A stretch of DNA of 64,000 bases from Roseivirga sp. Its GTDB lineage: Bacteria > Bacteroidota > Bacteroidia > Cytophagales > Cyclobacteriaceae. Positions 7,456-64,000 of this stretch are shown piece by piece. Location: assembly GCA_021404565.1 (NCBI GenBank), contig JAAWWF010000043.1, positions 1-64,000 of the forward strand, read 5' to 3'. The number at the start of each line of letters is the position of its first letter. Position 1 is the stretch's first letter. Under the pieces are notes generated by a model. It saw only the letters and a program-made list of their open reading frames with translations. It was not told the DNA's origin and made no database searches. Both the position numbers and the translations under genes were made by a program.

Positions 7456-8433
7456 ATGCAGATTACACCGAGTATCCTGGAGAAAGTGGGCGATACACCC
7501 CTGGTCTCTATTGCAATGAGTGAATACGAAAACATCAATCTATTCACTAAAATAGAGGCCTACAACCCCACAGGCAGTGTGAAAGACAGGGCCGCCTCTT
7601 ACATCTTAAGAAAGCTCCTGGAAAGTGGCGAAATAGATCAGGAGACCACCATCATAGAGTCTACCTCCGGCAATTTTGGAGTAGCGCTTTCTGCTTATTG
7701 TAAGTACTATGGGCTGCCTTTCATAGCGGTGGTAGACCCTTTCATTACCAGGATCAACGAAATGCTCATAAGAGCCAATGGGGCCAGGGTGGTAAAGGTA
7801 AATAACCCCGATGCCCGAGGCGGGTACCTGCTTACCCGAGTGCAGCAGGTAAAAGATCTGATGCAAGAAATCAAAAACTCCTACTGGGTCAACCAGTATG
7901 AAAATCCGCTGAACGCCAGAGCTTACTACCAGTCGTTGGGCAAAGAGCTTTGCTTTCAGATAGAGGAGATCGACTACATCTTTCTAGGGGTAAGCTCGGG
8001 AGGAACCATTACCGGTGTATCTCAAAAGATCAAAGAGAATTTCCCCAATGCTCAGGTGATTGCCGTAGATGTGGAGGGCTCGGTGATTTTCGGCAATGAA
8101 TCGCGCAAGCGGTTTATTCCCGGCATTGGCTCCAGCATGAAGCCCAAGATTTTAAAAAATGCGCTGATTGACGACTTCATCATTACCGATGAGGTGGCTA
8201 CGGTCAAGGCCTGTCACGAGCTACTGGAAAAGCATAACTTCTTTGTAGGCGGCTCCTCAGGTTCTGTCTATGCCGCAGTGCAGCAATACTTTGCCGATCG
8301 CAAACTGAGCCAACCCGTGAATGTCGTAACCATCTTCGCAGACAGGGGCGAACGCTATTTCGATACCATTTACAACAAAGGTTGGTTAGATAATATCTTC
8401 AAAATCATGCGGGAAACAGCCATTTCTGCCTGA
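7456..8433 (+). CDS. sbnA: SbnA-like PLP enzyme, N-(2-amino-2-carboxyethyl)-L-glutamate synthase (Dap pathway, step 1)
   Basis: A 325-residue fold-type II PLP enzyme of the cysteine synthase family. The cofactor Lys is K43 in NPTGSVKDRA. STSGNFG (about 70-76) contacts the substrate, and a glycine-rich SSGGTITG loop binds the PLP phosphate. A plain cysteine synthase is the alternative, but the next gene, 32 bp downstream, is an SbnB-type dehydrogenase. That pair is the defining signature of L-2,3-diaminopropionate synthesis from O-phosphoserine and glutamate (known from staphyloferrin B, and found in zwittermicin and viomycin-type pathways). Its role here would be to supply Dap to the three A domains with an acidic pocket in NRPS-2 and NRPS-3. 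Confidence 0.9.
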   Translation: MQITPSILEKVGDTPLVSIAMSEYENINLFTKIEAYNPTGSVKDRAASYILRKLLESGEIDQETTIIESTSGNFGVALSAYCKYYGLPFIAVVDPFITRINEMLIRANGARVVKVNNPDARGGYLLTRVQQVKDLMQEIKNSYWVNQYENPLNARAYYQSLGKELCFQIEEIDYIFLGVSSGGTITGVSQKIKENFPNAQVIAVDVEGSVIFGNESRKRFIPGIGSSMKPKILKNALIDDFIITDEVATVKACHELLEKHNFFVGGSSGSVYAAVQQYFADRKLSQPVNVVTIFADRGERYFDTIYNKGWLDNIFKIMRETAISA

Positions 8434-8465
8434 AACAAATTCATCAATTTCATAAACATTATTCA

Positions 8466-9416
8466 ATGCGCATTCAAAACGAAAATGACCTCCTGGAAAT
8501 AGGAATTGACTGGGAAAAAACCGTCTCAATCATTGAAGAAACGGTCCAATGTTTGGCCGATGGTGATTATTCACAACCCATTAAACCCTATTTAAGGTAC
8601 CGCGATCCGCGCAACAGGATCATTGCCATGCCTGCATTTGTTGGGGGCAACATTAACATGGCGGGTATTAAATGGATTGCCAGCTTTCCCGGCAACATTG
8701 ACCGGGGCATTCCCAGAGCGCATAGTGTGGTGATATTGAATGAAGCGGATACAGGGCGCCCACTGGGAACCATCGATACCCCTTTGCTGAGTGTGATCAG
8801 AACTACTTCAGTAAGCGGCCTTGTATTCAAGTATTTCAATGAACTCAGAAAACCTCAGTCCATCAAAATTGGCATGACAGGCTTCGGCCCTATTGGTCAA
8901 TACCATGCCAAAATGTGCTTTTCCATGTTTGGTGGTATCATTGAAAAAATGAGCATTTACGACTTGCGCGAAATTGATCAGAGCTTGTTTGAAGATAGTC
9001 GGATGGAAGTGGCCGACTCATGGGAGCAAGCTTATGAAGGTGCAGATGTGTTCATCACCTGTACTGTCTCAGATGCTCCCTATATTGACAAAAAACCAAA
9101 AGTGGGTTCGCTTCACCTCAATGTGTCATTGCGCGACTATACCATAGAGGTATATGATTGGTTCAAAGAAGCCATGTATGTAGATGATTGGGAAGAGGTA
9201 AACCGTGAAAATACAGACATAGAAATGATGCACCTTCACAAGGGGCTCGAAGAAGAAGACACTTTTTCAATAGTAGATATGGTGGTAGGAAAAGCATTTG
9301 CCAGACATGCCCCTGAAACCCCAATTTTATTCAATCCCATGGGAATGGCCGTGTTTGATATTGCCATCGGTAGTTATTATTACCAGACAGAACCCGTTCA
9401 TGTTGTTAATTTGTAA
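8466..9416 (+). CDS. sbnB: SbnB-like dehydrogenase releasing L-2,3-diaminopropionate (Dap pathway, step 2)
   Basis: A 316-residue member of the ornithine cyclodeaminase / mu-crystallin family. It has an N-terminal substrate domain with KPYLRYRDP and MPAFVGG, and a Rossmann motif GMTGFGPIGQYHAKM at about 137-151 for NAD. In the SbnB branch, oxidative cleavage of N-(2-amino-2-carboxyethyl)-L-glutamate gives Dap and 2-oxoglutarate. It follows sbnA by 32 bp, so the two are almost certainly co-transcribed. After its stop come 193 bp of AT-rich sequence before the permease gene. Confidence 0.9.
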   Translation: MRIQNENDLLEIGIDWEKTVSIIEETVQCLADGDYSQPIKPYLRYRDPRNRIIAMPAFVGGNINMAGIKWIASFPGNIDRGIPRAHSVVILNEADTGRPLGTIDTPLLSVIRTTSVSGLVFKYFNELRKPQSIKIGMTGFGPIGQYHAKMCFSMFGGIIEKMSIYDLREIDQSLFEDSRMEVADSWEQAYEGADVFITCTVSDAPYIDKKPKVGSLHLNVSLRDYTIEVYDWFKEAMYVDDWEEVNRENTDIEMMHLHKGLEEEDTFSIVDMVVGKAFARHAPETPILFNPMGMAVFDIAIGSYYYQTEPVHVVNL

Positions 9417-12440: not shown

Positions 12441-15400
12441 ATGACTGAAAAAATAGAAAAATCTAACGTTGATGGGATTTTTGAACTTAGCATGGTTCAA
12501 AAAGGGATGCTTTTTCATTACCTGAAGGAGGATCAAGGCAATCTCTACAATGTCCAGTTATCCTTTAAAATTGAAGGCGATTTGGATGTGGATCTTTTCA
12601 AAAAGGCATTCGAAAAGGTGCAGTCGGGCAATGAGGTGCTCAGGTCTGTTTTTCGATGGGATAAAATTTCGAAACCCATTCAGATCGTACTGAAAGATTG
12701 CCCGGTAGATTTCACCTATCATGACCTTGTGCAAGAGAAGACAGAAGCCTCGTCTGAGTTTGTGGAACAATTCCTGATCGATGATCGCAATCAGCGTTTT
12801 GACCTCACTAAGCTGGTGTTGAGGCTGAATCTGATCAAGACCGAAGCACAGTCCTATCTGTTTGTAATTACCCATCACCATATTCTCTATGATGGTTGGA
12901 GCACGGGGATTTTACTAAAAGAGCTTTTTGTGGGCTATCAGCAATTGGCGGTAGGTCAGGAGCCCGGGCTTACCACCAAACCAAGCTATGAAATAGTAAA
13001 AACGGCCCTGAAAAAGGAAGTAACAGACACTGTAGATGCCAGCTATTGGGAAAACTACCTGAGTGGACATGAAGAGAGTGCTTCTTTACCAGAAGAAAAC
13101 CCCAAAAAAGGAAGTCAGGTCAACGTGGAGAAATTTCGATTGACCCATCCCCTGGATGAACTTGAGACTTTTGCCCGGACCCATAAAGTAACCAAAGCTG
13201 CGGTGCTTTATGCCGCCTATGGCTTGCTGTTGCAAAAGCACAACGATGCGTCTGACGTTACCTTCGGCACTACGGTTTCCAACAGAAACTCTAGGGTCAA
13301 AGGTATGGGGCAGTTTATGGGTAACTTCATCACCTCTATTCCTTTGAGGCTACGAAATCAGGAAGGCAGTACCTTGCTTGAAGTGGTGAAAGGCCTCAAT
13401 CAGGAGCTAATCGAGAGAAATCCATACCATCACTCTTCACTCTACGAGATTAATCAGGCCCTGGGACTCAAAAGCGGTGAGGCCCTGTTTGATACTACTT
13501 TGGGTATTGAAAACTACCCACTTGATGAAGGCCTTCTCAATGCCATAGATGGGCTGTCTATCGCCTTGAATTCGGTATATGAGAACACCCATGTTTCACT
13601 GGCGGTTACTGCCATTTTTCGTGATAGCCTGGAATTGGAGTTCAATTACAAGCAGAATGTACTCAGTGCTGGTTTTGTGGCTTCAATGGCCCATCACTAT
13701 TGCACCATTCTAAACCAAATCACCTCACAGCCCGATCAGAAGGTAGAGGCATTGGACCTACTTTCCGAAAAGGAAAGCCATCAGTTGCTTCACGAATTCA
13801 ATAACACTGAAACCGACTATCCTTCAGAGAAGAGCTACATCGACTTATTTGAAGACCAGGTGGAGGAAACTCCAGATGCTTGTGCTTTGGCATATGGAGA
13901 AAGTCGTGTTACCTACCGTGAGTTAAACCAGCGAAGCAATGCGCTCTCGCTAAGACTGAAAGCAGCTGCAGGAGATGACGTGCTGGCAGCTCTCTATGTC
14001 CACCCATCCATTGAAATGGTGGTCAGCATTTTAGCTATCTGGAAAGGAGGCCTGGCCTATTTGCCGCTCGACCCAAACCAGCCAAAAGCCCGGTTGCAAG
14101 CCATGCTGGAAGACAGCCAGTGCCAGCTTTTGCTCACCACCACCGCTGATGAAAACGAACTCTCCTTTGCAGGGCAAAAACTACTGATTGATGAAAATGA
14201 CTCAGACGATGTCAATGAAATGCCCCCCTTACAAAGAAGCCCAGATCAGCTGGCCTATGTGATCTACACCTCGGGAAGTACAGGCAAACCCAAGGGGGTG
14301 AAGATAAAGCATGGCAACCTGGTGAACTATGTTAGCTGGATAAAAAAGGAGCTGGAATTAGGCGCTACTGATAAGGCAATATTGACACTTAACTATGCCT
14401 TTGATGCGGGTTATACCACCCTATTTCCAGCACTGGTTTGCGGGGGAGAAATTCACCTGATTCCCCGATCACTGATCTATTCGGCCGAAGGTTTGGTGGA
14501 CTATGTGTCGCAACAAGGCATTAGTTTTATGAAACTCACGCCTTCTTTATTCAAAGCGTTTATCGGTGCGGGTAATTTCGGCACAGTGCACCTGGATGGA
14601 CTCAAACACGTCCTTTTGGGGGGAGAAGCCATCATGGCAGCAGATGTGGAGAAAGCCGCATCGCTCTATCCTCACATCGGCTTCATCAATCATTACGGCC
14701 CATCCGAAACCACCATTGGTTGTATTACTCACCCTATTGACATGGGTGAATTCGATCATTTCAAAAACAGGCCTGTCATAGGAAAGCCCATTCATAACAG
14801 CCAGGCCTATGTGCTCGACAGGCATGGTAAGCCCTTGCCAATCGGGAGCAAAGGAGAGCTGTACATTGGAGGAGCAGGGGTTGGCCTGGGCTACCTGGGC
14901 AATCAAAAGCTCACCGATGAACGATTTCTTGATAATCCTTTTGTGCCCGGAGGCCGAATGTACAGAACCGGAGACATGGCCCGATGGCTTGCAAATGGTA
15001 CCGTAGAGTTTTTAGGTAGAACCGATGAGCAAGTGAAGGTCAGAGGCTACCGCATTGAATTGAAAGAAATACAAAAGCCTCTGGCCGCTTACGATGCCAT
15101 TGAAGAAGCAGTAGTGGTAACCAGAATCAAAGACGATGAAAGATACCTGGTGGCCTACTATCAGGCTAAATCCGCTGTGGAGGCGACAGTGCTCAGGGCA
15201 TATCTGCTCACCAAATTGCCCGCTTATATGGTGCCCACGCAATTTGTGCACCTTGAAGAGATTCCGCTCACAGTTAATGGAAAGGTAGACAAAAAGCAGC
15301 TGCCAGGACCAGAGATCAAGCCTCCGGCTGCGAGATTGACCACAGCCAATCAAACAGAAGAAATCTTGCTAAACATCTGGGCTGAAGTGCTCGGCCATGA

Positions 15401-18400
15401 TAGCATCAGTACCGATCAGAATTTTTTCGATGCTGGAGGTGACTCGCTCAAAATGATCACCATGTCTTCCAAAATCAGTAAGTTTTTCAAAAAAGAAGTT
15501 TCTGTAACCAACCTTTTTGCCCATCCCACCATTACCGAGCTGGCCCGCTTGGTTGGCCCGGAAGAAGTGGCTACAAACCGAGCGACTCGAAAGATGAAGA
15601 CAAAGAGCCAAAACAATGGAAAATCCGCAAATGAGTCTAATGACATTGCAGTGGTAGGCATTGCTGGGCGATTTCCCGGTGCGGCCAATGTGGGTGAACT
15701 TTGGGAGAACCTGAAAGCGGGGGTAGACTCGGTACAGCGGGAGATCAAAGAAACTGAGCAGGGAGGTATTATAAAAGCCAAAGGCATTTTGGAAGGAAAT
15801 GACATGTTCGAGGCCTCCTTCTTTAACTATACTCCGGATGAAGCCAACCTCATGGATCCTCAGATGCGCATCTTTCACGAATGTAGCTGGGAAGCCCTGG
15901 AAGACGCGGGCTATGACCCGTTTCAGTATGAGGGTGCCATCGGTTTGTATGGAGGTGCATCGGTTAACCCTTTTTACACACCAGCCATCGGCCAGGACAA
16001 TCACGAAACCTGGATGGAAAACTGGCAATCCCATATCTATTCTACTCACGATTACCTCTGCTCACGAGTCTCCTACAAACTGAACCTGAGAGGACCAAGT
16101 GTTAACATTGCTACGGCCTGTTCTACTTCTTTGGTCGCCATAGACGCGGCCTGCCGCGACTTGCAGGACGACCGTTGTGACATGGCCTTGTCAGGTGGAG
16201 TATCGCTTACTTTTCACGACACGGAGGGCTATAAGTACAAAAAAGACATGATTCTGTCTCCTGACGGCTACTGTAGGGCCTTCGACAAAGGTGCGGCCGG
16301 AACTGTAGGAGGAAATGGCGTGGGCATTGTGGTGCTCAAGCGACTCAAGGAGGCCCTCAGAGATGGGGACAACATTCACGCGGTCATCAAGGGGAGTGCT
16401 GTTAACAACGATGGCATACAGAAAGTGGGTTTCACAGCCCCCAGCATAACGGGGCAAGCCGAAGTGATTCAGTCGGCCATTCATAATGCCAATATTGACC
16501 CCGAATCGATCTCCTATGTAGAAGCACATGGCACGGGTACCTTACTGGGTGACCCGATTGAGATGGAAGGACTCAAGCGAGCCTTTGATTCTAAAAAAGA
16601 AAATTTCTGTGCCATTGGCTCTGTGAAGACCAACTTTGGCCATTTGAATGCCGCAGCAGGAGTCACGGGCTTTATCAAAACCGTTTTATCGCTTAAAAAC
16701 AAACAGATCCCGCCAAGCCTACATTTTGAGTCACCCAATGAAGCACTGGGCATTGAAAACAGTCCTTTTTACGTAAACAACAAGCTAAAAGACTGGCAAA
16801 GGAACGGAACCCCAAGGCGAGCGGGCGTGAGCTCATTCGGCATTGGCGGTACCAACGCCCATATTATTCTCGAAGAGGCTCCCGAAAGGATCAAAGTCTC
16901 TGAAAGCAGAGACTACCAGCTAATGGTCTTATCGGCCAAAACCCAGGCAGCCCTGGACCGCAACATGGCCAACCTGAAGCTGCACCTTGAGGCCCACTCC
17001 GATGAGTCATTGGAAGACATTGCCTACACCCTGAATCAGGGTAGGGCGCATTTTGATTATCGGAAATCCATCGTCTTTGAAAACCGTGAGCAGGCGATCG
17101 ATCAGCTTTCGAAAAGGGACGGGGCCAACCAAAAAGGCCCAGCCAGGCACTTTGAAGATCAGACAATTGCCTTCATGTTCCCCGGCCAGGGAGCGCAATA
17201 TCTCAATATGCTTCGCGACCTCTATGATGGTGAAGCAGCATTCAGGGAAATGGTTGACGAGTGTTTTGATCTGGTGAAATCGGTGGCGGGCAAAGACCTG
17301 AAGCCCATAGTTTTTGGCGATCCCGATCCTGATGGAGAAAACCTGATCAACCACACGGAGTTTACTCAGCCTTTGCTCTTCATCATGGAGTATGCCTTGG
17401 CGCGTCTGTTGATAAAATGGGGCATACAACCCGATGTGATGATAGGTCATAGCATTGGTGAATACGCAGCGGCCTGTATCAGCGGGGTTTTCTCATTAAA
17501 AGATGCCTTGACACTGGTGGTGAAAAGAGGCGAATTGATGCAGAAACTACCTACTGGCTCAATGCTCAGCCTGACCATGACTGAAGAGGAATTGAAGCCC
17601 TTCCTGGCAGAGGCACCAACGCTCTCGCTGGCAGTATCGAACAGCACCAAATCTTGTGTGGTTTCTGGTCCTCACGAGGCGATCGACTTTTTCCAAAAGC
17701 GTATGGAAATGGAGGGCCATAAAGGCAAAAGAGTGCAATGCTCTCATGCATTCCATTCAGCCATGATGGATGGAATGCTTGGAGAATTTACGGCTGTAGT
17801 AGATGCCATGGACCTGCAAAAACCACAGATACCTTTCATCTCTAACCTTACAGGAGTTGAGGCAGAAGCTGAGGAGGTGACGACCGCTAGTTATTGGGCA
17901 CAGCACTTGCGTGGGACCGTGCGGTTTTCGCAGGGCATTGAGACACTCATGGCTAATAAAAAGACCTTGTTTATTGAAAGCGGGCCGGGCGGCATCCTCA
18001 GCTCACTGGTACATGCCAACAAAGAAAAGGGAACGGGTCATCACACAGTCAACCTCGCGAGGCACCCAAAAGATCAGAAGAATGACTGGCAATTCCTGCT
18101 CTCTGCCCTGGGTGAGTTGTACCTGAAGGGGGGCATCATCGATTGGCAGGCTTTTTACGCTCATGAGTCACGTCTAAAGGTATCGTTGCCTACCTATGCT
18201 TTTGAAAAAATCCAATACCCGGTAAAAACACAGGCATTGGTGAGTCCGCAAGCAACGCAACAGCCGCTGGTGCGTATCGATGATGTTGCTGAGTGGTTCT
18301 ATGTGCCCTCCTGGAAGATGCTGCCGCTGTTTGCGAACGAGTCAGCTACGAAACCGGGTGCCACCAACCTTATTTTTATGGACGGGGCCAGCCTGGGCCA

Positions 18401-21400
18401 GTCGCTGATCAACCATTTTGAGAGCAAGGGTGACAAGGTAATTCAGGTGAGCAAAGGAGCCGCCTTCAAGGCCAACAGCGATACGACTTATCAGCTCAAC
18501 CCTGAGAAAGAAGGCAACATGAAAGCCTTGTTTGAACATTTGGCTGAGCAGGGCGTGACAGTAGACCGCATCATCTATGGCTGGTCTGTTGGAATGCAGG
18601 AAGAGGCCAATAACAGCTTCTGCCACCTGGTAGAATTGGTGCAGGCAGTCACGGCCAATACGGCCAGTTTGAACATGCAACTGGTATTATTGACCAATGA
18701 CCTGCAATCCGTACTGGGTCATGAAAACCTTGACATTGCCCAAAGTACCTCCACCGCATTGCTCAAAGTAATTGGTCAGGAATATCCGGGCATTACTACC
18801 AGTCAAATTGATGTAATGCAGTCTGAGTCAAACAATAAGGGACTCATTGATGCGCTTTACCAGGAAATTGCCCACCAGCAAGCTGGCAAAACAGTTGCCT
18901 ACAGGAATTCACGCAGATGGGTGCAGGTATTTGAGCAGTTATCCACAGAGCTGTGCGATAACAGCAGCCTGCTTCGCAAAAAAGGTGTCTACCTCATTAC
19001 AGGAGGCTTGGGCGATCTGGGATATCACTTGTCCAAATACCTGCTCAAAACCACGGAGGCCAGGTTGATACTGACCGGTCGTAGAACCCTGGGGGGGAAT
19101 GATGAGGCTAAGTCTAAGAAATTAAGTGAACTGCAATCACTCGGTCAGGTGATATACATCGCTTCCGATGTGACTGACCTGGAAGCCATGCGGCAAGCAG
19201 TGGCCCAGGGCGAAGAGCATTTGGGAGCCCTTAATGGGGTGATTCATGCGGCAGGGATGGTCGGGGAAGACTCCAAAGATTTTATCAAAAACCTTAACCG
19301 CAAAGTGATTGATACTCAGCTGGCTTCCAAAGTAACAGGAACCGCTGTGTTGCAAGAAGTGCTTGGTAAACGAGCACTGGATTTTTGTATCCTCACTTCT
19401 TCCATTTCCACCATACTGGGCGGTTTGGGATTTGCTGCTTATGCTTCGGCCAATGCTTATATGGACCATTTTGCACAAGCTTCGGGAGAAAACTGGCTCA
19501 GCGTCAATTTCGATGGGTTGAATTTGGTCGGAGGCACCGGGGAAGGCATTGATGCGGAAGAAATAATAACTGTCTTCCACCAGCTGTGGTCCTTCCTGCC
19601 CTTGCCGCAGGTGGCCGTTTCGGTAGCCGATTTGAATGAGCGACTGAATACATGGGTCTACCAAGCAGAGGCAGCCGGAGCCATGGAAAGAAGTCCGAAA
19701 GCTGCGGTAACTCAGGAGGCAGCACCTGCTGCCGTGGTGGCAGACAGCGAGCTGAGCATGGAAGATGCCTTGCTGGCCCTCTGGCAAAACTTCTTTGGCA
19801 CTTCAGAAATTTTCCCGGACGACAGCTTCTTTGCAATTGGTGGTGATTCGCTGAAGGCCCTGAGCATGATTGACCGTATCCAAAATCAGTTTGGCGCGGC
19901 CCTTTCAGTGGAGCAGCTCTTTGCCAACCCCACCATTTCCGAACTTTTGCTGCTGATTACCCCTGCCATAGAAGAAGTAACCATTGAACCGGTGGTGGAG
20001 GAAGTAAGCACTTCCATTCCAAAAGCACCGGTAAAGGACATTTACCCACTCAGCTCTGTTCAGCAAAGACTTTACTTCCTCAATGAATTCGACCAGGATC
20101 TGCTGGCTTATAACATGCCCATGGTACTCACCCTGGAAGGGACATTGGACCCAGCTCGCCTTAAGTCCGCCTTCAATGCACTGGGTGAACGCCATGAGAG
20201 CCTCAGAACTTTTTTCGATGTAGTAGAAGGAACACCAGCACAAAGAATACTGGCAGGTATTGATTTCAAAATTGAACATTACGAGGCCACTGAGGCCGAA
20301 GTGAAATCAGTCATTACCGACTTTATTCGGCCTTTTGACCTCAGTAGGGCACCTTTAATGCGCATTGGTCTGATTCAAACAGCGCCTGAGGCACACACTC
20401 TCATGGTAGACATGCATCACCTGATCAACGATGGGGTCTCTCGTGATGTGCTCGTCCGTGACTTCATGGCCCTGTACAATGGAGAAGCACTATGCCCACT
20501 CCAATTGCAGTACAAGGATTATGCAGAATGGCAGCAAAGTGAAGGCTTGCAAGAGGAGATATCCAAGCAAAAGGACTTTTGGCTAGACCAGTTTGCAGAA
20601 CAGGTGGAAACCCTGCAGTTACCACTTGATTTTGCCAGGCCTGCCATCAAGAGTCAGGTCGGTGATCATGTGCAATTTGACTTAAGTCCTGAACTGACGC
20701 AGCAACTAAAGGCCATTGCCAATACAGAAGGGGCCACCATGTTTATGGTGCTACTGTCGATTTACAACATTTTGCTATCCAAGCTGAGCCTTCAGGATGA
20801 CATCGTGGTTGGAACCTCAACGGCCGGTCGCCACCAACAAGCTCTGGAAGACATCATCGGGATGTTTGTCAAGACTATTCCATTGAGAAACCGCCCTGAA
20901 GGGGAGCTTACCTTCACTGAGTTTTTGAAAAATGTCAGGACGCAGGTCATTCGTTGCTTCGACAATCAGTCTTACCCTTATGAAGACCTGATTGGTGCAC
21001 TCAACATCGAGCGCGATACCAGCCATAACCCACTGTTCGATGTCCTGTTCTCCTATGAGAACTTTTCAAAGACAGACCTAAGCTTGCCCGGACTCAGCCT
21101 GAAGCCTTATGACTTTAAACATACCGATGCTAAGTTTGACCTGACGTTAACGGCCGGAGAAAAGGAGGATGGCTCGCTCTACCTGGGCTTAAATTACAGT
21201 GTTGGCCTATTCAAAAAACCCACGGTTGAAAGATTTGCCCGATACTTCGAAAACATTGTTAAAGGGGTAACGGCTAATGCAGAAGTCAGGCTCAAAGACA
21301 TTGAGGTATTGACCGATGAAGAGCGAAACCTGCTCTTGAGCAAATTTAACGTTACAGCACTGGATTATGCTGATAAGGATACACTGGTTTCTCTTTTCGA

Positions 21401-24400
21401 AAAACAGGTAGAAGCCACACCTGAAAGGGTAGCAGTGGTATTTGAGGGCCAGCGATTAACCTATGCTTCGCTGAATGAAAAGGCCAATTTATTGGCTGGC
21501 AACCTACGAAAGGCTTATGATATCAGGCCCAATGACGTGGTGGGTATCATGGTGAGAAGGTCTGAAATGATGATGACGGGCCTGATCGGTATCCTCAAAT
21601 CAGGAGCAGCCTATTTGCCCATTGATCCAGACCACCCGAAACAAAGAATTCAACATGTGCTTGAAGACAGCCATGCGGGCATACTCATTACAGAAGCCGG
21701 TCTGGAACAAGGACTGGATTTTGATGGACAGGTCATTTACCTGGAAAGCGAACTGGATCAGTCGGTAGGCAATACCAATCAGAAACCCGTGAACCGTCCG
21801 GAAGACCTCTGCTATTTGATTTATACCTCGGGTTCTACTGGTAAGCCCAAAGGGGTGATGATCTCACACCAGAATGTCATGAATTTCTTCTGTGGTATGA
21901 GTGATAAGATTCCGGCCACAGAAGAAGATTGCTTGCTGGCCGTAACGAATACAAGCTTCGATATCTCTGTTCTGGAGCTCTTCTGGACCCTGACACAGGG
22001 CATTGAGGTGGTGATCCATCCATCTGGCACCTCCCTGAACAACCTCGACCGCTATGTCTCTAATCAGGATGTGTCTATGGACTTCGGGCTGTTCTTCTTC
22101 TCCAGCTACAAGAATGAGGGCGATGATAAGTATGACCTGTTGCTAGAAGCCACTCGCTATGCCGATGAAGCTGGTTTTTCAGCCGTATGGACCCCAGAGC
22201 GTCATTTTCATGAGTTTGGTGGGTTATTCCCCAACCCATCGGTATTGAGTTCTGCCCTGGCCATGGTCACAGAACAGGTTGAGCTCAGAAGTGGGAGCGT
22301 GGTACTGGCCCTGCACGATGAAATAAGAGTGGTAGAAGAGTGGTCAGTGGTCGATAACCTTTCAAATGGAAGGGTGGCACTGTCCTTTGCTGCCGGTTGG
22401 AATCCGAACGACTTTGTGTTGAAAGATGCGAATTTCGCTGAGCGGCACCAGGTCATGTTTGAGAAGATCGAGGAAGTGCAAAAACTATGGAAAGGAGGAA
22501 GCATTGAACGCGAAAACGGGTTTGGTAAAACCATAGAACTAAGCGCTTTCCCTGTGCCTGTTAGGCCAGAACTGCCTATTTGGGTAACCTCCGGAGGGGG
22601 TGAAGAGACCTTTAAAAGTGCCGGTGAAGTGGGTGCGAATGTGCTCACGCACTTGCTGGGACAGGACATCGATGAATTAGCTCGCAAGATCAGACTTTAC
22701 CGGGAAGCCCGGGAGGCCCATGGTTTTGACCCCAAAGAAGGTAAAGTGGCCCTCATGTTGCATACTTATGTTGGTGAAGACATTGAAGAGGTTGAGCGAA
22801 TTGTTGAGCAGCCCTTCATTGAGTACCTGGAAAGTTCATTTGCCCTGAACAAGGCGATTTTTGAAGAAGAAGGAGTCAAGGAGGAAGAACTCTCTGAAGA
22901 GGTGAAGGCACAGATCATGAAGAATGCATTCAAGCGCTATTACAAAACCAGCGCCTTGATAGGAACGAAGAATAGCTGCAGTGAAATGGTGCTTAAGCTT
23001 AAGCAGGTTGGGGTTGATGAAATCGCTTGCCTGGTTGACTTTGGGGTAGAGCAGAAACTGATGATGGAAGGTTTAAAACACCTGAAAGGACTGAAGGAGC
23101 TGCATGCAGAGGTGACGATAGAGCATCATAAGCCAATCACCATGATGCAATCCACGCCATCATTTATGGGGCACCTCAACAAAGATTTGGGATCGCAGGC
23201 ATTTCTGAGGTCATTGAAAACACTGATGATCGGTGGTGAGGCCCTGCCCATGTCGCTGGTTCAAGAACTCAGAGAAACGACAGAGGCTGGCATATTCAAC
23301 ATGTATGGACCCACCGAATCGACCATTTGGTCATGCGTGTACGAGTTTGCTGGTGACGAAGACAAAGTGAGTATTGGTAAACCCATTGCCAATACCCAGA
23401 TTTATGTATTGGACCGTGCCAGACAACTCGTACCTATAGGGGTGGCGGGTGACCTTTACATAGGTGGTAAAGGCCTTTCAGGAGAGTATTGGAAAAGACC
23501 TGAACTGACAGCCAAAGTGTTTGTAGACAACCCTTTCATCGATGGAGAGAAGATTTACAGAACAGGCGATTCAGCCCGCTGGTCAGCCGATGGCACTTTG
23601 GAATTCATAGGCAGAACAGACTATCAGGTAAAACTCAAAGGCTACAGGATTGAGCTGGGTGAAATCGAACACATTTTACTGGAGTACCCTGGCATCACCG
23701 AAGCCATTGTGGTGGTAAAAGGTGAGCAGGAGAATGAGAGCCTAGTGGGCTACCTGGTGACCAAAGCTGTGGTTGATTTTACCGAGTTGAGGTCTCATGC
23801 CGGCCAAAAACTACCGCACTACATGATCCCTACAGACTTTATTGTGTTGGACAAAATGCCACTGACCCCAAATGGTAAGGTAAATCGCAAGGCCTTGCCA
23901 GAACCAGTGGCTACCACAAGAGACCAATATGAGGCCCCTCAAACAGAGAAAGAGCGACTTTTGGTTGAAGTGTGGTCCAAAGTGCTGGATGTAGAGCACG
24001 TGGGTGTAACCGATAATTTCTTCGCGGTAGGTGGCGACTCTATCAAATCCATCCAGATCATTTCCAGGGTGCGAAATGCAGGCTATGAAGTATCGGCCAA
24101 AGACATCTTCATTAGCCAGACCATCAGGCAACTGGCTACTAGGCTCAGAGAGATTACCCTCACTTCGGACCAGTCTACACTGACCGGACAAGGGGCACTG
24201 AGCCCTATTCAGCTGTGGTATTTCGACCGGGCTTCAGTAGACGTTCATCATTACAACCATGCAGTGATGCTTCACTTCCCCAAGGGCATTTCAGAGGACT
24301 TTGTTCGCAGGATTTTTGAAAAGCTGCAAGAGCATCATGATGCCCTGAGGACGGTCTTTCATAGGCAGGGAGAAGAGCTATTATCAGAGATTAAAGGAGT

Positions 24401-27400
24401 AGACCTGCCCGTTTCCCTTGCTACCTATTACCTGGAAGAAGACAGCGACTCACAAGCCGCGATACTTACCCATGCCAACGAAATACAAGCGTCAATCGAC
24501 CTGCAAGGTGGTCCATTGATGAAGCTTGGCCTTTTCCACACGCAAGAGGGCAGCCGCTTGCTAATCGTGATACATCACTTGGTTATCGATGGTATTTCCT
24601 GGAGGATCTTGTTCGAAGACATTGAGCAGGCGCACCAACAGCTCATTCACAAAAAGCCCTTGGTTTTGCCATTGAAAACCGATGCCTTCCAGGCTTGGCC
24701 AGGTCATTTACAGGCCTACATGGGAACAACGGCTTATGAAGAGGCACTACAATATTGGTCGGCCTTGTCGGCCCAGGAATTTGACCTGATCAAAAGAGAT
24801 CGGATTAGTGGAGAGAATATCGGAGAGCACAGTAGACTGGAGACCATTACCATAGACCCAGAGGCTACTCAAAAGCTGCTGACAGAAGTGCACGAGGCTT
24901 TCGGAACACAGATAAACGACCTCCTGCTAGCCGCCCTCTTACTGGCCTTCAACAAAAAACTGGGGCTGCAGAAGGTCATGGTTGACATTGAAGGTCATGG
25001 CAGGGAAGACTTGGGCACAGGGGTGAATATAAGCAGGACCATAGGCTGGTTTACCAGTATTTTCAGGCTGCTGCTGGATGGTGATACAGAGGACCTGGCC
25101 CGATACATTAAGCAGATCAAAGAGAAGATAAGGGAGATTCCGAATAATGGCATCGACTTCCTGCTGGCAAGGTTTTTTGATCAGGAAGGCCGCGAAACAA
25201 CTGATGGCCCCGAATCCAGACCACAGCTAAGCTTCAATTACCTGGGCCAATTCAATGCCGATACCAAAGGCAACACTTTTGAGCTGCTCGATGAGCCGGT
25301 AGGCGACATGGTTTCATCGCGTGCTACCTTGCTTTACGACTGGGACATTACCGGTCTGGTGATTGAGGATGAGCTGGAAATTCGCCTGCGCTACAGTGCC
25401 GATCAGTATGATGCCGAAACTATCAAAAGCTTCCTGGCTGAGTATAAGGCCAGTCTCGAAACCTTAATCAACTTCTGTAGCAGCTACGGCAAGGCAGAGC
25501 TCACTCCTTCCGACATCATCTATCCGGGCCTGTCCATTGATCAACTGGATGGACTACAGCAACAGTTTGAAGTAGAGAATGTGTATCCACTTTCTCCAAT
25601 GCAGGAGGCCATGCTTTTCCATGCTTTGATGGACCCTAATTCGGCCCATTACTTTGAGCAATTGACCTTTGATTTTAAGGGAGACCTAGACATCGCTAAG
25701 ATGGAGGAAAGTGTCAACGAGCTGATCAGGCGCTATGACATTTTCCGCACCCTCTTCCTGCACCAAGACCATGAATACCCATTACAGGTTGTGCTAAAAG
25801 ATCGCAAGGTAGATTTCATCAACAAAGACCTGAGAGCTGCTTGTCAGAAGCAATCAAGGGAAGCAGTGGTGGCCCGGTTCAAGCAAGAAGACCTGGACCA
25901 TAAGTTCGACCTGAGTAAAGACATCATGATGCGCCTTACCTTGCTAAGAACCGCTGACGATGAGTATACATTGATCTGGAGCTATCACCACATTGTCATG
26001 GACGGCTGGTGTGTACCGATCATATTCAATGAATTCAAAGAAATATACGCAGGTCTGAGACAAGGAACCGAAGCCACACTGCCGGTTGTCAAGCCTTTTT
26101 CAACCTACATTTCCTGGCTACAGCAACGCGAGGAGCAAGAGGCCCTGGATTATTGGCAGCGATACCTGTCTGACTATGACAGCCTGGCTACGCTACCGGT
26201 TAAAACAACCCTGCCGCAAACGGGCGAAAGGCCTTATGACCTGAAGTCGATGGGACTGGATCTGGATCCGGACATTGTGGCATCACTCAACGATATTTCC
26301 AAAACCCATGGTGTAACGGTGAACACCATCATTCAATTGGCCTGGAGTGTCTTGTTGAGCCGATACAATAATGTTGATGATGTGGTATTTGGAGCCGTGG
26401 TATCAGGCAGGCCTTCAGAGATCGAAGGCATAGACAGCATGGTGGGTATGTTCATCAATACCGTGCCGGTGAGAGTGAATTTTGAGCAGGAAGAGAAAGT
26501 GAGTGATGTACTGAAAAGAGTACAGGAAGAAGTGATGACAGGTACCCCTTACCATTACAGCCCATTGGTGAAGATACAATCGCTCAATGACCTAGGGGCC
26601 GACCTGCTGAACCATATTATACTTTTCGACAACTACCCGTTTTCGGAAGATGAAGCTGGAAGCGAAGAGGAAGCGAGGAATGGCTTCCGTGTGACAGGAG
26701 CGGGACTCTATGAACAGTCTTTCTTCGACTTTTACCTGGTGGTGGTACCAAGGGGTAAATTCCACATAGAATTAAACTACAATGCCAACGCCTTCGATGG
26801 CCATGTCATAGAAAGGGTAAGGGCACATTTCGCCCAAATCATCACGCAATTTACCAATGATTGTGAGGTGCCACTCTCGGCCATAGAGATGATTTCCGAA
26901 GGAGAAAGAAAAGAAGTGCTGGAGGTGTTTAACGATACTTTTGAAGCCTTTGATAAAGACAAAACCTTCATCAGCCTGTTTGAAGAGCAGACACAGAAAT
27001 CGCCTAAAAGTGTAGCAGTCCTCCATAATGGAGAATCATTTACTTACGAAGCGCTATATGAAAAGGCGGGCAGGCTCTCAGCCTTACTACAAAGTAAGGG
27101 CCTGAAAGACAACCAGAAAGTAGCACTTTACATGCCACGGGGCATCGACATGCTCACCAGTATTCTGGCCGTATTCTATGCCGGTGGGGCCTATGTACCC
27201 ATTGATGTGACCTACCCTGGAGAAAGGGTAAAAGAGATTCTATCCAACAGTGAAAGCCCACTGGTGCTGACACACCAGGCCCATCAGGAACAGATGGAAA
27301 ACCTGGTGGCTGCCATCCCAACACTGGAAACTACCCTGGCGGTAGATGGCTTGGCCCTGGAAGCTTTTGTAGCGAGCGAAAAAGCAGCGAGCAAGCCAGA

Positions 27401-30400
27401 TGACCTGGCCTACATCATCTATACTTCCGGTACTACCGGCAAGCCCAAAGGGGTAATGATTCACCAGCGTGGCATGGTCAACCACCTCTTCGCTAAAGTC
27501 AACGACCTAAACCTGACAGCCGAAGACATTGTGGCGCAAACCGCCTCACCGTGTTTCGACATATCAGTATGGCAATTCCTTTCTGCCCTGGTGGTAGGAG
27601 GCAAGACGCTGGTCATTGATAATGACATCATACTGGAGCCAAATGCCCTGGTAAACGTCCTGGAAAAAGGAGGTGTCACCATCTTCGAATCAGTACCTTC
27701 CCTCATCACCACCTTCCTGGATGGGCTACCTTCTGATGAGCAAAAATACCTGCAGGACCTGAGGTGGATGATTCCCACCGGAGAGGCCTTGACCATGGGG
27801 CTGGTGAAAAAATGGTACGCCTATTTCCCTCAAATTCCACTACTGAATGCTTACGGACCTACAGAGGCTTCTGACGATGTGACACACTTTGTAGTACCAC
27901 AGCCCAAAGAGGGGCAGTCTACAGTGCCAATTGGCAAACCAGTACAAAACACCCAAATCTACATTGTTGACAAGCACTTGAACCTGTGCCCTGTCGGGGT
28001 AAAAGGGGAGGTTTGCGTGGCAGGTTTGGGGGTAGGCAAGGGCTATTGGAAGAACGAGGAAAAAACGAAAAGTGCCTTTGTACCCAACCCATTTGGGGGA
28101 GCCTATGAAGGCTTGGCATTTGATACCCTTTACAAAACAGGAGATGTGGGCTACTACCAGCCCGATGGCAACATCGTGTGCCTGGGGAGGGTAGACAGCC
28201 AGGTGAAAATCCGCGGCTTCAGAATAGAGCTGGAAGAAATAGAAAGCCACCTGGCAATTCACGAACACATTGAGGAGGTGGCTGTGATTACCCGGGAAAA
28301 GAGTGGCCTCAAATTTTTAGTGGCCTACTATGTGGCTGCCGAGGTTTTGGAGACTTCTGTGCTCCGAGAGTACCTGCTGGCCCGCCTGCCCGATTACATG
28401 GTGCCTTCTTACTTTGTGCACGTGGAAGCCATGCCGCTTACAGCCAATGGCAAGCTCAACCGAAAGGCACTGCCTGAAGTAGAAGGAGTAGCGGTAGATG
28501 ACTATGTGGCCCCGGTTACCGCAGGTGAAAAGTTACTGGCCGAAGTTTGGTCCAATGTGTTGGGCATAGAACAGATAGGAGTGACGGACAACTTCTTTAT
28601 GCTGGGTGGAGATTCCATCAAGTCCATTCAAATCTGCTCAAGAGCCCGCAGTGCTGGTTTTGAGCTCGCGGTACAAGACATTTTCTCGCAACAAACCATC
28701 AGTGAACTGGCGCAACAACTGAAAGCCCTACAAGCGAATCAGGCACCAGTAACAGCAGCACCTCTGGAAAGAAACGGACGCCTGACCACAGAGCATCTTA
28801 CCTATCATGGCCTGTCGCAGGGCCAGTTAGACAAGCTGCTGGAGCGCTATGACATAGAAGACATTTATCCACTTTCTTCTATGCAGGAGGGCATGCTGTA
28901 CCATGCACTCATAGATCTTGATGCCGGAGACTACTTCGGGCAATCCACCTATGAATTACAGGGTAAACTGGATCTGAAACTGGTGGAAGAGAGCATGAAC
29001 GAACTCATGTCGCGCTATTTTATATTGCGCACCATCTTTCTGCATGAAGGCTATTCACGCCCCATTCAGGTGGTGCTCCAGGAACGTAAGATCGATTTCA
29101 GCCATCACGATCTGCGCAAAGAGCTGAATGGCTCAAAGGAAGCCAGGCTGGAGGCCTATCGCGATGCAGAGAAATCGAAGCCCTTTGACCTGACCGCAGA
29201 TGTACTCATGCGCCTGGTCGTATTGCAAAGCGCAGACGATGAATTCGAACTGATCTGGAGTCACCATCACGTGCTGATGGACGGCTGGTGTATCGGTATC
29301 CTGGTCAATGAGTTTACTATGATCTACAGCCGCAAGCTGCAAGACAGGCCTGTCTATTTGCAACCAACCACTCCTTATTCCACCTACATAAGGTGGTTGG
29401 AAAACAGGCAAAAAGAGGCATCTCAGACCTACTGGAAAGACTATCTGGCGGGTATAGAGACCGCGCCAACCTTTCCGCAAAAAGATGCCACGGCCGAGGC
29501 ACCCTATGTGCTGAAAAAGCAACACCTACAGTTTAGCAAAGAAGAAACCAGCGAAATGGAAACCTTTGCCAGGCAGCATGGCGCAACCATGAATACCCTC
29601 TTCCAGGCTGCCTGGGGCCTGATGCTGGCCCGCTACAACAATGCCGATGATGTAGTCTTTGGTTCAGTGGTTTCTGGTCGCCCGGTAGAGATTGAGGGCA
29701 TAGAAACCATGGTCGGTTTGTTCATCAACACCATCCCTACAAGGGTCAACTTCCAGTCGGAAGACACGGTAAATGACCTGCTACAGAAAACACAGCAAGA
29801 CAGCATCAATAGCGGACCGCACCACTACTTCCCGCTGGCCGAGATTCAAGCCCAAAGCGAACTGGGAGGCAATTTGATCAATCATATCATTGCCTTTGAA
29901 AACTTCCCGGTTACCCGTCATCTCATCGATCCGGAAGCAAAGGCACTGGAAGAAGCCATGCCTTTCAAAATCAAAAAGTCGGGCTACTGGGTACAGACCA
30001 ATTACGACCTGAGCCTCACGGTAATTCCGACCGAGGAATTCGAAGTAATCTTTGACTATAACCAAAACAAATACGGAGACAACATCATCGAGCAGATGCG
30101 TTCGGCACTGAAGCACATCATGACTGCTTTTGCAGCAGACGCTGACAAGCCACTGACCGACATAGCCCTGTTTGATGAGCAGTCTCAGCAAGCCCAAAGC
30201 CAGCACCTGGCTTGTGACCTGACCGTTCCCCTGGACTTTGTAACCATACAGGAAAGACTGGCCAGAAGCTTTGGCGAAAACAGTGCTGGCACGGCCATAG
30301 AGTACAAAGGCCAATCGTATGACTACGCCATGTTAGAGGCCAGGGCTAATCAAATTGCCCATGCGATAGTAGCAGGTAACTTGCCCGATGAGAGTAACAT

Positions 30401-33415: not shown

Positions 33416-34471
33416 ATGATGGATTTTAGCCTTTTCTTTTTTTCGAATTATGATGTCGATGACAGCGACAAATACCACCTGCTCAAAGAGTCGGTCAAAT
33501 ATGCCGACCAGGAATGTTTCAAGGCGGTTTGGACCCCAGAGCGTCACTTTCATGAGTTTGGTGGCCTGTTTCCCAACCCTTCCGTAACCAGTGCGGCCCT
33601 GGCCATGATCACTAAGCAGATCGAGCTCAGGTCGGGCAGTACGGTTTCTCCACTGCATGACGAGATCAGGATTGCCGAAGAGTGGTCGGTGGTAGACAAC
33701 CTTTCCAAAGGCAGAGTGGCCCTTTCCTTTGCCTCGGGCTGGAACGGCAACGACTTTGCCATGGCCAAAGAAAATTATCAAAACCGCCATGAGGTCATGT
33801 ACAAGCAGATTGACAATATACAGCGGCTGTGGAAGGGGGAGAAGATCAAGCGCGTTAATGGCTTTAACAAAGAAGTAGAAGTTGGCACCTTTCCAAGACC
33901 CATTCAAAAGGAACTGTCTGTGTGGATTACCGCAGCTGGTAATGAGAAAACCTACATCATGGCCGGTGAAAAAGGGATGAACCTGCTCACTCATTTGCTG
34001 GGGCAAGACCTGGACGAGCTGGCGCGAAAAATTGCCCTCTATCGTGAAGCCAGAGAGACAAATGGTCATGGTGCCGATTTGGGCAAGGTGGCCCTGATGC
34101 TGCACACCTATGTAGGCGATGATGAAGACGAAACCATGAAGGTGGTGGAAAAGCCCTTCATCAACTACCTGAGAAGTGCCACCAGCCTGAGCAAAATCAT
34201 TTATGAAGAAGCGGGCCATAAGGCAGAAGACATTCCCGAAGAAGACAAGGAACTGATGCTACGGCATTCTTTCCTGCGCTACAGCAAGGAGGCGGCCCTC
34301 ATAGGTACGCTGGACAGTTGTAGCGAAACGGTGGTGAACCTTTCTGAAATAGGCGTAGATGAAATTGCCTGCCTGGTAGATTTTGGCGTGGAACCAAAGC
34401 TGACCCTGGAGGCCCTGAAAAACCTGAAGACACTACAGCAAATCTTCAGTAATCAGGAGGCAGTGGTATGA
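33416..34471 (+). CDS. stand-alone luciferase-like flavin monooxygenase
   Basis: A 351-residue protein that aligns along its whole length with the domain inserted in the Gly A domain of NRPS-2 (shared FHEFGGLFPNPS, LTHLLGQDLDELARKI, GKVALMLHTYVG, DEIACLVDFGVE). It belongs to the secondary-metabolism luciferase-like monooxygenase family, which uses reduced flavin and oxygen. The start is MMDF, with a second ATG one codon on; the second matches the start of the inserted domain. It begins 92 bp after NRPS-2. It could hydroxylate another carrier-bound residue in trans, for example the Gly of NRPS-3 whose A domain has no insertion, but no sequence feature shows its partner. Confidence 0.9.
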   Translation: MMDFSLFFFSNYDVDDSDKYHLLKESVKYADQECFKAVWTPERHFHEFGGLFPNPSVTSAALAMITKQIELRSGSTVSPLHDEIRIAEEWSVVDNLSKGRVALSFASGWNGNDFAMAKENYQNRHEVMYKQIDNIQRLWKGEKIKRVNGFNKEVEVGTFPRPIQKELSVWITAAGNEKTYIMAGEKGMNLLTHLLGQDLDELARKIALYREARETNGHGADLGKVALMLHTYVGDDEDETMKVVEKPFINYLRSATSLSKIIYEEAGHKAEDIPEEDKELMLRHSFLRYSKEAALIGTLDSCSETVVNLSEIGVDEIACLVDFGVEPKLTLEALKNLKTLQQIFSNQEAVV

Positions 34472-36537: not shown

Positions 36538-38130
36538 ATGAATATCAAGCGATTCACTTTGTATTTGAATATAACCAGGCCATCCTATGTCTTTTTTCTG
36601 GCGCTGGGTTTCCTCCTTACAGTGGGGTTGGCACCTCAGGCCATGGCGCAGGCGCAAAAAAACTTTCGGTCTAACGGCAAGAAAGTCAATGTCAGGCGAT
36701 TCAATAAAGAGGTTGATAAAATGATGAATGAGATGGGGGTGCCCGGACTGTCATTGGCAATTATTGAAAATGACCAGATTGTGTTCCGTAATGGCTATGG
36801 TATGAAAAGACTGGGAGAAGCAAAGGATGCGAGTCAGGCTACTAATTTTGCCTATGGCTATTCAGTAAAGCACCTGGACATTGACAAACCTGTGGATGCT
36901 GCCACTGTGTTCAATGGAGCCTCATTATCAAAGACCTTTCTGGCTTTTGTGGCCTTGCAATTGGCCGAAGAGGAGCTTTTGGACCTGGACAAACCCATGT
37001 ACCAATACATGGCGTATTCACGCCTCGAACACGATGAACGCTACAAGCAGATCACCGCGAGAATGGCCCTGAGTCATTCCTCTGGCATGGAAAACTGGCA
37101 GCATCAAAACGACAGTAAAAAGCTTGAAATCATACATAATCCCGGAGAGGCTTTTTTGTATTCGGGAGAGGGCTACAACTTTCTGGCCCTGGTCATCAAG
37201 CAAATACTGCAGGAGTCTTATAGCGTGTATGCCAGGGAAAGAGTGATCGAAAAGCTGGAGCTGAAGAATTCTTACCTGAATTTTAACAGAGGAGAAAATC
37301 CGATTCCTCTTGAGAAACAGGTACCCATGAATTTTGTCGCGGCACACCCTATGGGAGGTGGTCAATACATCATCAGAAATATACGCGTGCAACCCGCCTA
37401 TGCCAACCACTTTAATGCCGAGGACTATGCCAAGCTTGTTTTGGGCATGTTCAATACAAAGAACCTTAGTAATAAAAGGATTAAAGAGATCCTGGAGCCC
37501 AAAGTTAAGATCGGTTGGTCAAAGGTGCACTATGGCCCTGGCTTCAAGCTCATTTTCAGCAAAGGAGACACCATAATCTGCCATGGGGGGGATAATCCCG
37601 GCTACAAGAACTTCATGTTTTACTCACCGGTCAAAAAACGGGGCTTTGTCATGTTGACTAATAGTGACAGGGGTAAATCCATGTCGGCTCGCCTTAATAC
37701 CCTTACCACCGAACTGGAAATTGAAGGTTTTCTGGCCGCGGAACATGATCTCTCCACCTATTTGCAGTACCCGGACCCCGCGTTTAACCTACTAAAGGCT
37801 TTTGATGAAAAAGGGGCTACTGAAATGTACGCTGCAATGGAAAGTGGAATAGCTAAAGGAAAAATTACTGCCAGGAGTATGAATGGATTGGCCATGTTCT
37901 TTCTCTGGTATGGTGACCGCGACATTGGGTTCAAAATTCTCGAAAATGCTAAAGCCACTTTCCCAAAATCAGCGTTAACCTACTGCCTGTTGGGCGATTA
38001 TTACCTCGACAATGGTGACTATAAACTGGCGCTTGAGCAATACCATAAGAGCAAGGCCTTGAATTTCAGCTATTGGGACTTGGAAGAGAAAATCAGGAAA
38101 TGTGAAAAGGGGATTTCTCAGATAGAGTGA
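36538..38130 (+). CDS. secreted serine hydrolase, S12/class C beta-lactamase family; candidate prodrug-activating peptidase
   Basis: A 530-residue protein with an export signal: a hydrophobic segment at about 16-33, then AMA|QA with likely cleavage after residue 37. The beta-lactamase/S12 catalytic set is present: SxxK at Ser129-Lys132 (GASLSK), Tyr208 in LYSGEGYNF, and His349-Gly-Gly as the third motif. The last 100 residues or so look like a TPR-type helical tail (GDYYLDNGDYKLALEQY). Family members hydrolyse D-residue peptides, esters or beta-lactams in the periplasm. ClbP, ZmaM and XcnG belong here and remove N-acyl-D-Asn caps, and NRPS-1 makes exactly that cap. Unlike ClbP, this protein has no C-terminal membrane helices, so it may be a general serine hydrolase or a resistance enzyme instead. 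The fold call is strong; the function is inferred from context. Confidence 0.85.
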   Translation: MNIKRFTLYLNITRPSYVFFLALGFLLTVGLAPQAMAQAQKNFRSNGKKVNVRRFNKEVDKMMNEMGVPGLSLAIIENDQIVFRNGYGMKRLGEAKDASQATNFAYGYSVKHLDIDKPVDAATVFNGASLSKTFLAFVALQLAEEELLDLDKPMYQYMAYSRLEHDERYKQITARMALSHSSGMENWQHQNDSKKLEIIHNPGEAFLYSGEGYNFLALVIKQILQESYSVYARERVIEKLELKNSYLNFNRGENPIPLEKQVPMNFVAAHPMGGGQYIIRNIRVQPAYANHFNAEDYAKLVLGMFNTKNLSNKRIKEILEPKVKIGWSKVHYGPGFKLIFSKGDTIICHGGDNPGYKNFMFYSPVKKRGFVMLTNSDRGKSMSARLNTLTTELEIEGFLAAEHDLSTYLQYPDPAFNLLKAFDEKGATEMYAAMESGIAKGKITARSMNGLAMFFLWYGDRDIGFKILENAKATFPKSALTYCLLGDYYLDNGDYKLALEQYHKSKALNFSYWDLEEKIRKCEKGISQIE

Positions 38131-57383: not shown

Positions 57384-57516
57384 ATCTACCCGGCCTTTTC
57401 CTCTGAGGATTCTAAAAAGCCCGATTGCTCCCTGACTGGTAATTCGGATCTCTGACCGCCTCTGAGTGGTCGGGGGGCCACCACATATGCGAACGGTAAA
57501 AGCGAAACATCAATAT

Positions 57517-64000
<6,484 letters not shown>

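Follow-up and report, generated by a model that had tools for sequence, protein, structure and literature searches.

A luciferase-like monooxygenase within a glycine adenylation domain, followed by an epimerisation domain, in Roseivirga sp.: a candidate module for configured in-chain alpha-hydroxyglycine

Roseivirga sp. (Bacteroidota; assembly GCA_021404565.1; genome, 8.57 Mb) carries a hybrid nonribosomal peptide synthetase (NRPS)-polyketide synthase (PKS) gene on contig JAAWWF010000043.1. The window analysed in this study is the first 64 kb (64,000 nucleotides) of this 77,106-base contig. One internal module of the gene contains an adenylation (A) domain with a glycine-type code, a luciferase-like monooxygenase (LLM) inserted into this A domain (A[LLM] hereafter), a carrier (T) domain, and an epimerisation (E) domain, and is followed by a condensation (C) domain of the D-donor type. 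Glycine is the sole proteinogenic amino acid on which an epimerase should be useless. The A[LLM]-T-E architecture in the window is confirmed and far beyond chance. Judging from the sequence and from analogy with known enzymes, we propose, with a probability of roughly 60%, that the LLM makes an in-chain alpha-hydroxyglycine, that the E domain inverts it, and that the D-type C domain passes on the D-like (R) residue.

The hybrid gene and its glycine module

Domains were called with hidden Markov models (HMMs) built on the window itself; the training rows of the C-domain HMM included the E domain of the open reading frame (ORF) 912-7343. The domain order of ORF 12441-33323 is C-A-T-KS-AT-KR-T-C-A[LLM]A-T-E-C-A-T-C-A-T-C (KS, ketosynthase; AT, acyltransferase; KR, ketoreductase), and a Pfam run on positions 18900-26400 agreed with it. 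The features are listed below.

12441..33323, + strand: hybrid NRPS-PKS gene, uninterrupted frame of 6960 amino acids
15612..19940, + strand: upstream PKS module KS-AT-KR-T (own HMMs)
15612-16916, + strand: KS (own HMMs)
17160-18089, + strand: AT (own HMMs)
18972-19541, + strand: KR (own HMMs)
19743-19940, + strand: T of the PKS module (own HMMs)
20004..21338, + strand: C of the glycine module, outside the D-donor fork, C1 motif YPLSSVQQRL (own HMMs, tree)
21375..22022, + strand: N-terminal part of the A domain, code residues D, I, L (A4 motif at 21957)
22083..23093, + strand: inserted LLM, TIGR04020 (MupA/Atu3671 FMN-dependent luciferase-like monooxygenase; profile score)
23139..23921, + strand: C-terminal part of the A domain, code residues Q, M, G, M, I, W, K (A5 motif at 23298)
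23919..24128, + strand: T with a GGDSI motif, the type seen before E (own HMMs, motif)
24153..25508, + strand: complete E domain, catalytic motifs intact (alignment to solved E domains, motifs)
25560..26921, + strand: next C, D-donor type (HMMs, tree, solved structures)
26955..28487, + strand: A domain of the acceptor module, code DIWEITADDK (own HMMs, code)
33416..34471, + strand: stand-alone LLM gene, TIGR04020, 62% identity to the inserted LLM

The LLM lies between the A4 (FDIS) and A5 (NMYGPTE) motifs. The inserted LLM scored 479.9-480.3 bits and the stand-alone LLM 477.6-477.9 bits against TIGR04020 (curated cut-off, 244.45). The nearest solved structure to the insert is PuwE (6ket, E = 2.8e-116), and among the 105 LLMs in the tree the closest is the stand-alone LLM of the same cluster (pairing support, 76). 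The stand-alone enzyme may act in trans, and it may serve the plain glycine module of the same cluster (41499-42986, code DILQMGMVWK). In the Pedobacter cluster its position is occupied by a Cupin_8 protein (L056:16590-17675); the position is perhaps a slot for exchangeable hydroxylases.

Alignment to other A domains gave the pocket DILQMGMIWK, which we take to be a glycine code; both the pocket positions (GrsA numbering) and the meaning of the code are our assumptions. On this reading, a code for a chiral amino acid was considered and rejected. A glycine-type code was present in 111 of the 112 deduplicated A[LLM] domains fetched, with the pattern loosened by one letter to admit the domain of cluster G502 (110/112 with the stricter pattern). 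The A domains bearing the same insert in the myxothiazol and melithiazol assembly lines are described as glycine-recruiting (PMC10204066; PMC11342130; papers are cited here and below for their accessible passages).

The E domain aligned near full length with the E domains of tyrocidine synthase 2, gramicidin S synthase 1, and bacitracin synthase 3 (333, 323, and 319 bits, respectively). It retains HHLVIDG, EGHGRED, TIGWFTS, and FNYLGQ (the HHxxxDG, EGHGR, GWFT, and NYLG motifs), including the catalytic His and Glu, and a broken E domain was ruled out on these grounds. The next C domain scored 352-367 bits against the C domains of bacitracin synthase 3 (367), surfactin synthetase, and tyrocidine synthase 2, which we take to be D-donor domains, and 96 bits against that of tyrocidine synthetase 3, presumably an L-donor domain. 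An earlier annotation made from the letters of the window alone (the sequence-only reading) had claimed the glycine code, the insertion between A4 and A5, the completeness of the E domain, and the D-donor type of the next C domain, and had named a chiral substrate and the loss of the E-domain His/Glu as observations that would count against it. The four claims agree with the results above, and neither of the two observations was made.

Occurrence of the module type and its domain partners

An LLM alignment scan of genome contigs yielded at least 583 confirmed relatives; of the best 80 loci, 54 had an A[LLM] whose two A parts were both clearly recognised (55 domains). A motif filter, which drops the PERHLH group (L143, L211), passed 105 distinct A[LLM] modules. 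The T domain was followed by C in 10 modules, by thioesterase (TE; assigned by motif) in eight, and by E in four (the window, L059, G502, and L066, the last two on cut loci); 74 modules stopped shortly after T (21 of them from close myxobacterial kin), T was not seen in four, and five had other tails. The gene next to the 74 stop-ended modules started with KS in 25 cases and with C in seven, had no NRPS domain in nine, and was absent or short in 33. Many A[LLM] modules are internal: 12 in-protein A[LLM]-T-C arrangements were seen, and a further seven across a gene border. Glycine A[LLM] domains are widespread and often internal; only the directly following T-E is unusual.

The search for an A[LLM] followed by E, as suggested in the sequence-only reading, found the order in two other Bacteroidota clusters (L059 and G502) and in near-identical loci of three cyanobacteria (L066, G1413 L348, and G1414 L351). 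In the cyanobacterial loci, the approximately 86 to 130 residues after T open as an E domain, where the retrieved DNA ends. The A[LLM]-T-E order is rare but recurrent, seen in one cyanobacterial cluster type and in three clusters of Bacteroidota; an order unique to the window was thereby ruled out. The count of E cases is a lower bound, as in the two LLM-rich groups named below at most 30 loci per set were covered, plus 19 further myxobacterial stretches chosen by frame length. A plasmid search showed no colinear A[LLM]-T-E among the 10 records listed of 2618. LLMs above the TIGR04020 cut-off were found in 4/59 relatives, 3/395 of the phylum, and 2/295, 1/22, and 2/214 in further genome sets (counts including the centre genomes), and were frequent in myxobacteria (61/96) and in one cyanobacterial family (87/217). 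A PKS module with KR precedes the glycine module in all four A[LLM]-T-E cluster types, an observation that covers the A[LLM]-T-E modules alone. In three other loci (L147, L148, and L149), KS-AT-T is followed by C, a degenerate N-terminal A part, an LLM, a degenerate remainder, and directly the next C; these are pseudo-A domains carrying an LLM (order from all three, with the sequence itself from L147 and L149).

The type of the next C domain switches with the presence of E. The C domain after A[LLM]-T-E scored as D-donor in 3/3 clusters (in one of them in the next gene), and the C domain after A[LLM]-T without E scored as L-donor in 19/19 (12 in the same protein and seven in the next gene; Fisher p = 6.5e-4, uncorrected for kinship). 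On the rows used to train them, the D- and L-donor HMMs were right in 8/8 and 76/76 cases; the training excluded three C-after-T rows placed in the D-donor fork of the tree. In a tree of 82 C domains, including 25 ordinary C-after-T rows drawn at random, the D-donor rows formed one fork (Shimodaira-Hasegawa-like approximate likelihood ratio test, SH-aLRT, 100) and the same split by E presence was obtained. The carrier motif was GGDSI in all six A[LLM] modules before E (three being cyanobacterial near-copies) and GGHSL or GGNSL, never GGDS, in all 12 before C. Among the ordinary modules of this set, 43/45 carriers before E and 10/179 before C had D. A link between the T motif and the C type has been published (PMC10212144).

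A close comparison is the cluster of Pedobacter sp. PF22-3 (L056, G450). It has the same kind of start as the window's cluster, ligase-T-C-A (Asn-like code)-T-E, as well as the Asn synthase and the beta-lactamase-fold protein, and it has an A[LLM] glycine module (identity to the window: LLM, 61%; A domain, 51%; both together, 54%). Unlike the window, it has no E after A[LLM]; its carrier is GGHSL and its C domain is of the L-donor type, scoring 373 bits against tyrocidine synthetase 3 and 73 against surfactin synthetase subunit 3.

E-domain motifs were surveyed in 49 E domains. The catalytic motifs were intact in 3/3 full-length E domains after A[LLM]-Gly, in 34/35 after a non-Gly A domain, and in 0/2 after plain Gly; eight further E domains with an unread A code were all intact. 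After plain Gly, EGHGR was replaced by ENNGRG (G791) and EGNARI (G222; Glu kept), the G222 domain being assigned to plain Gly by its position and by a code from a separate code table. The groups are tiny, with Fisher p = 0.0045 for plain Gly against non-Gly and p = 0.10 for A[LLM] against plain Gly. A[LLM] was followed by E in three cases plus one cut E (L066) and by C in 12. The plain-Gly control comprised 66 rows, followed by C in 27, KS in one, and an E-like domain in three (L265 and L316 being one module), with 35 ending, unclear, or without T. Non-Gly plain A domains were followed by E in 39 cases plus one cut, by C in 136 plus one cut, and by KS in nine. The rule that Gly plus E always means hydroxylation was rejected in view of the two plain-Gly E-like cases, both of them motif-altered. 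The one remaining domain of the survey, at L063:2-6349, is E-like and comes straight after a KS-AT-KR-T PKS module; its motifs are altered to HQLVADE and QGRGREA.

The origin of the pairing was evaluated by tree tests. Placing the three full E domains (window, L059, and G502) in one clade was rejected (approximately unbiased, AU, test; p = 1.2e-6). The closest match to the E domain of the window is a different E domain of the same cluster (40%), and G502 shows the same pattern (41%). Holding the three LLMs together was rejected (p = 0.032), and the test with the window and L059 only gave p = 0.43. The LLMs of L059 and G502 pair with a support of 91 (not starred). A starred group of four contains the inserted LLM of the window together with the stand-alone one of its cluster; the nearest inserted relatives of the window's LLM, from Pedobacter and Chitinophaga, occur without E. 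One inherited module as the source of the three full cases was rejected by the E and LLM trees; the A-domain test gave p = 0.30. Because the E and LLM trees reject a common clade, at least two separate pairings of A[LLM] with a T-E-D-type C block are likely.

Cluster surroundings

The upstream ORF 912-7343 encodes an acyl-AMP ligase-type A domain, T, C, an A domain with an Asn-like code (DLTKIGEVGK), T, and an E domain with an ESHGRH motif. An Asn synthase and a beta-lactamase-fold protein (36538-38130) are present in the cluster. ORF 912-7343 together with 36538-38130 resembles what we take to be an acyl-D-Asn prodrug start with its peptidase. An SbnA/SbnB-like pair for 2,3-diaminopropionate (Dap) lies at 7456-9416; the SbnA homologue scored 395 bits, above the NCBIfam cut-off of 350, and the SbnB homologue 292, below its cut-off of 327. 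The code DIWE(I/V)TADDK is common to three A domains of the cluster, and the form in the acceptor module is presumably Dap- or 2,4-diaminobutyrate (Dab)-like. At 41499-46160, the plain Gly module is followed by a domain with DAMMIDAGS, which we assume to be of the heterocyclization type, and by the code DLYNMSLIWK, which we read as Cys-like.

Near the end of the window, approximately 50 residues at the end of ORF 57466-63975 (63702-63975) recur, in a different frame, where the next NRPS frame begins (L023, contig position 63701 onward). This repeat, which leaves an A domain without T and a T domain without A, is either an assembly join or a small duplication.

Proposed chemistry and its alternatives

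In the proposed route, the A domain would activate glycine, as its code suggests, and the C domain would join it to an acyl chain, which the PKS module directly upstream would supply. The LLM, with FMNH2, O2, and a reductase from elsewhere in the cell, would then hydroxylate the glycyl alpha carbon on the carrier; this step is inferred because of the analogy with MtaG/MelG and MupA. The resulting N-acyl alpha-hydroxyglycyl thioester would have a stereogenic alpha carbon bearing a hydrogen, like a normal E substrate, and the E domain, whose motifs are intact, would equilibrate it. The downstream D-donor C domain would take the D-like isomer, the line would continue, and the carbinolamide would stay inside the chain. 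By our own derivation from the Cahn-Ingold-Prelog (CIP) rules, L-like alpha-hydroxyglycine is S and D-like alpha-hydroxyglycine is R. The configured in-chain residue of the sequence-only reading is thus supported as a prediction, with hydroxylation, inversion, and retention each argued from the domain make-up. Its premise, that an E domain is useful only if glycine is alpha-substituted, holds in part: the E domains are intact after A[LLM]-Gly and altered after plain Gly, but plain-Gly modules with E-like domains do exist, so the premise is not strict.

Several known systems come close to the module. MtaG (myxothiazol) and MelG (melithiazol) likewise have a monooxygenase between A4 and A5 of a glycine A domain and alpha-hydroxylate glycine; there the product is cleaved to an amide and a TE releases glyoxylate, whereas the module of the window is internal and continues with T-E and a D-type C (PMC10204066; PMC11342130). 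The corallorazine-like clusters of Serratia and Pseudomonas have a monooxygenase (MOx) within A2, compared there with the glycine-recruiting A domains of myxothiazol and melithiazol; the MOx is predicted to truncate the peptide, and the accessible passages mention no E domain (PMC11342130). In solanimycin SolF, a monooxygenase sits in a glycine A domain and alpha-hydroxyglycine is kept in the chain, as proposed here, but the insert lies between A8 and A9, is called FMO, and is described in those passages without an E domain in the module (PMC10204066). In-chain alpha-hydroxyglycine is known from solanimycin B, skyllamycin, and spergualin (PMC10204066). In skyllamycin and epoxinnamide the residue is likewise kept inside the chain, but Sky39 and EpcG are stand-alone hydroxylases, and the residue of skyllamycin and dolyemycin is S (L-like), whereas R is predicted for the window (PMC9321520). 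MupA of mupirocin biosynthesis is the namesake of TIGR04020; in vitro, supplied with Fre, FMN, and NADH, it alpha-hydroxylates an acyl carrier protein (ACP)-bound beta-keto thioester. It belongs to the same family as the LLM of the window, but it acts in trans, and its substrate is a PKS beta-ketoacyl-ACP instead of glycine (PMC10952193).

The sequence-only reading had set an internal module with a retained alpha-hydroxyglycine against MtaG. The module is indeed internal, but internal positions are common and retention is known from solanimycin. It had also stated that no described assembly line is known to have this order. Searches of open-licence papers turned up neither a Gly-A[LLM]-T-E module nor an R-configured alpha-hydroxyglycine residue, but other genomes carry the same order. 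The epoxinnamide and solanimycin papers, both covering hydroxyglycine and epimerization, describe other arrangements in their accessible passages (PMC9321520; PMC10204066). An R-configured residue would be new as far as the papers cited here go.

Several points weigh against the proposed route. MupA was inactive on a beta-hydroxy form without an acidic alpha carbon (PMC10952193), and a glycyl thioester is likewise less activated than the beta-keto substrate of MupA. N-acyl alpha-hydroxyglycine can break to an amide and glyoxylate, as proposed for myxothiazol (PMC10204066; PMC11342130). The samples are small, with three clusters containing a full E domain and two plain-Gly controls; five of the 12 in-protein rows without E are myxobacterial, and four of these are one close group. 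E domains were not clearly more or less frequent after A[LLM] than after plain Gly, and the A-domain tree did not reject a single origin of the three cases (AU p = 0.30). A D-type C domain is not strictly tied to E, because three C-after-T rows lie in the D-donor fork: L123, L094, and the C domain at 28842-30197 of the same ORF, whose preceding module is without E. Because T, E, and D-type C tend to move together as one block, the agreement of their types is by itself no proof of E activity here.

The block behaviour also bears on an unlikely alternative, in which recombination brought an A[LLM] cassette into what had been a D-amino-acid module, whose T-E-D-type C part was kept. The LLM would hydroxylate glycine, and the E domain and the D-type C would be tolerated leftovers that set no configuration. 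The joint switching of the T, E, and C types suits such a relic, and the closeness of the E domains of the window and G502 to E domains of their own clusters is as expected from local recruitment. However, at least two likely independent pairings keep all E motifs, and EGHGR is lost from both of the E-like domains that follow plain Gly. Cleavage as in MtaG, with release of the upstream chain as a primary amide and a glyoxylyl group left on the carrier once the alpha-hydroxyglycine breaks, appears improbable, although the insertion site is that of the myxothiazol and melithiazol synthases (PMC10204066; PMC11342130) and TE follows eight of the 105 A[LLM] modules by motif. In the window the module is not a terminal one with TE, and the polypeptide continues with E and additional modules; the next C domain resembles peptide-forming D-donor domains, and a glyoxylyl group would offer the E domain no alpha stereocentre.

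Two further alternatives are given very little weight. The E domain might dehydrate the hydroxylated residue to an N-acyl imine instead of inverting it, or aid a nucleophile, such as an upstream hydroxyl, in closing an N,O-acetal of fixed configuration. Relatives of the E-domain fold with other chemistry are known, all four cluster types have a PKS module with KR immediately upstream, and in the window KR is the only domain recognised between AT and T, so that a beta-hydroxyl may be present. The longer AT-to-KR gap in L059, G502, and L066 nevertheless suggests more reductive domains, in which case the hydroxyl need not exist, and both the E motifs and the next C domain are of the ordinary kind. 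It is equally hard to credit that the LLM acts at another position or is silent, with the E domain working on plain glycine or idling. TIGR04020-type enzymes of PKS lines do act on polyketide carbons, as MupA does (PMC10952193), and the LLM of the palmerolide PKS has been proposed to do so (PMC8739492); the nearly invariant glycine-type code of the A[LLM] domains, however, is hard to explain unless the LLM acts on the loaded glycine.

The broader proposal derived from the sequence comparisons stands at about even odds: C-A[LLM]-T-E plus a D-type C domain would be a recurrent stereo-editing class that gives (R) in-chain alpha-hydroxyglycine and that came together on at least two occasions, when A[LLM] was joined with T-E-D-type C blocks, always behind a PKS module in the cases seen. 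If the proposed route is true, the module would be a self-contained means of placing a configured N,O-hemiaminal in a peptide, as the D-like isomer and thus opposite to the S residues of skyllamycin and dolyemycin. The combination of A[LLM], a GGDSI carrier, an intact E domain, and a D-type C domain would serve as a sequence rule for finding such compounds, and whether an ordinary E domain accepts a hemiaminal carbon becomes a directly assayable question.

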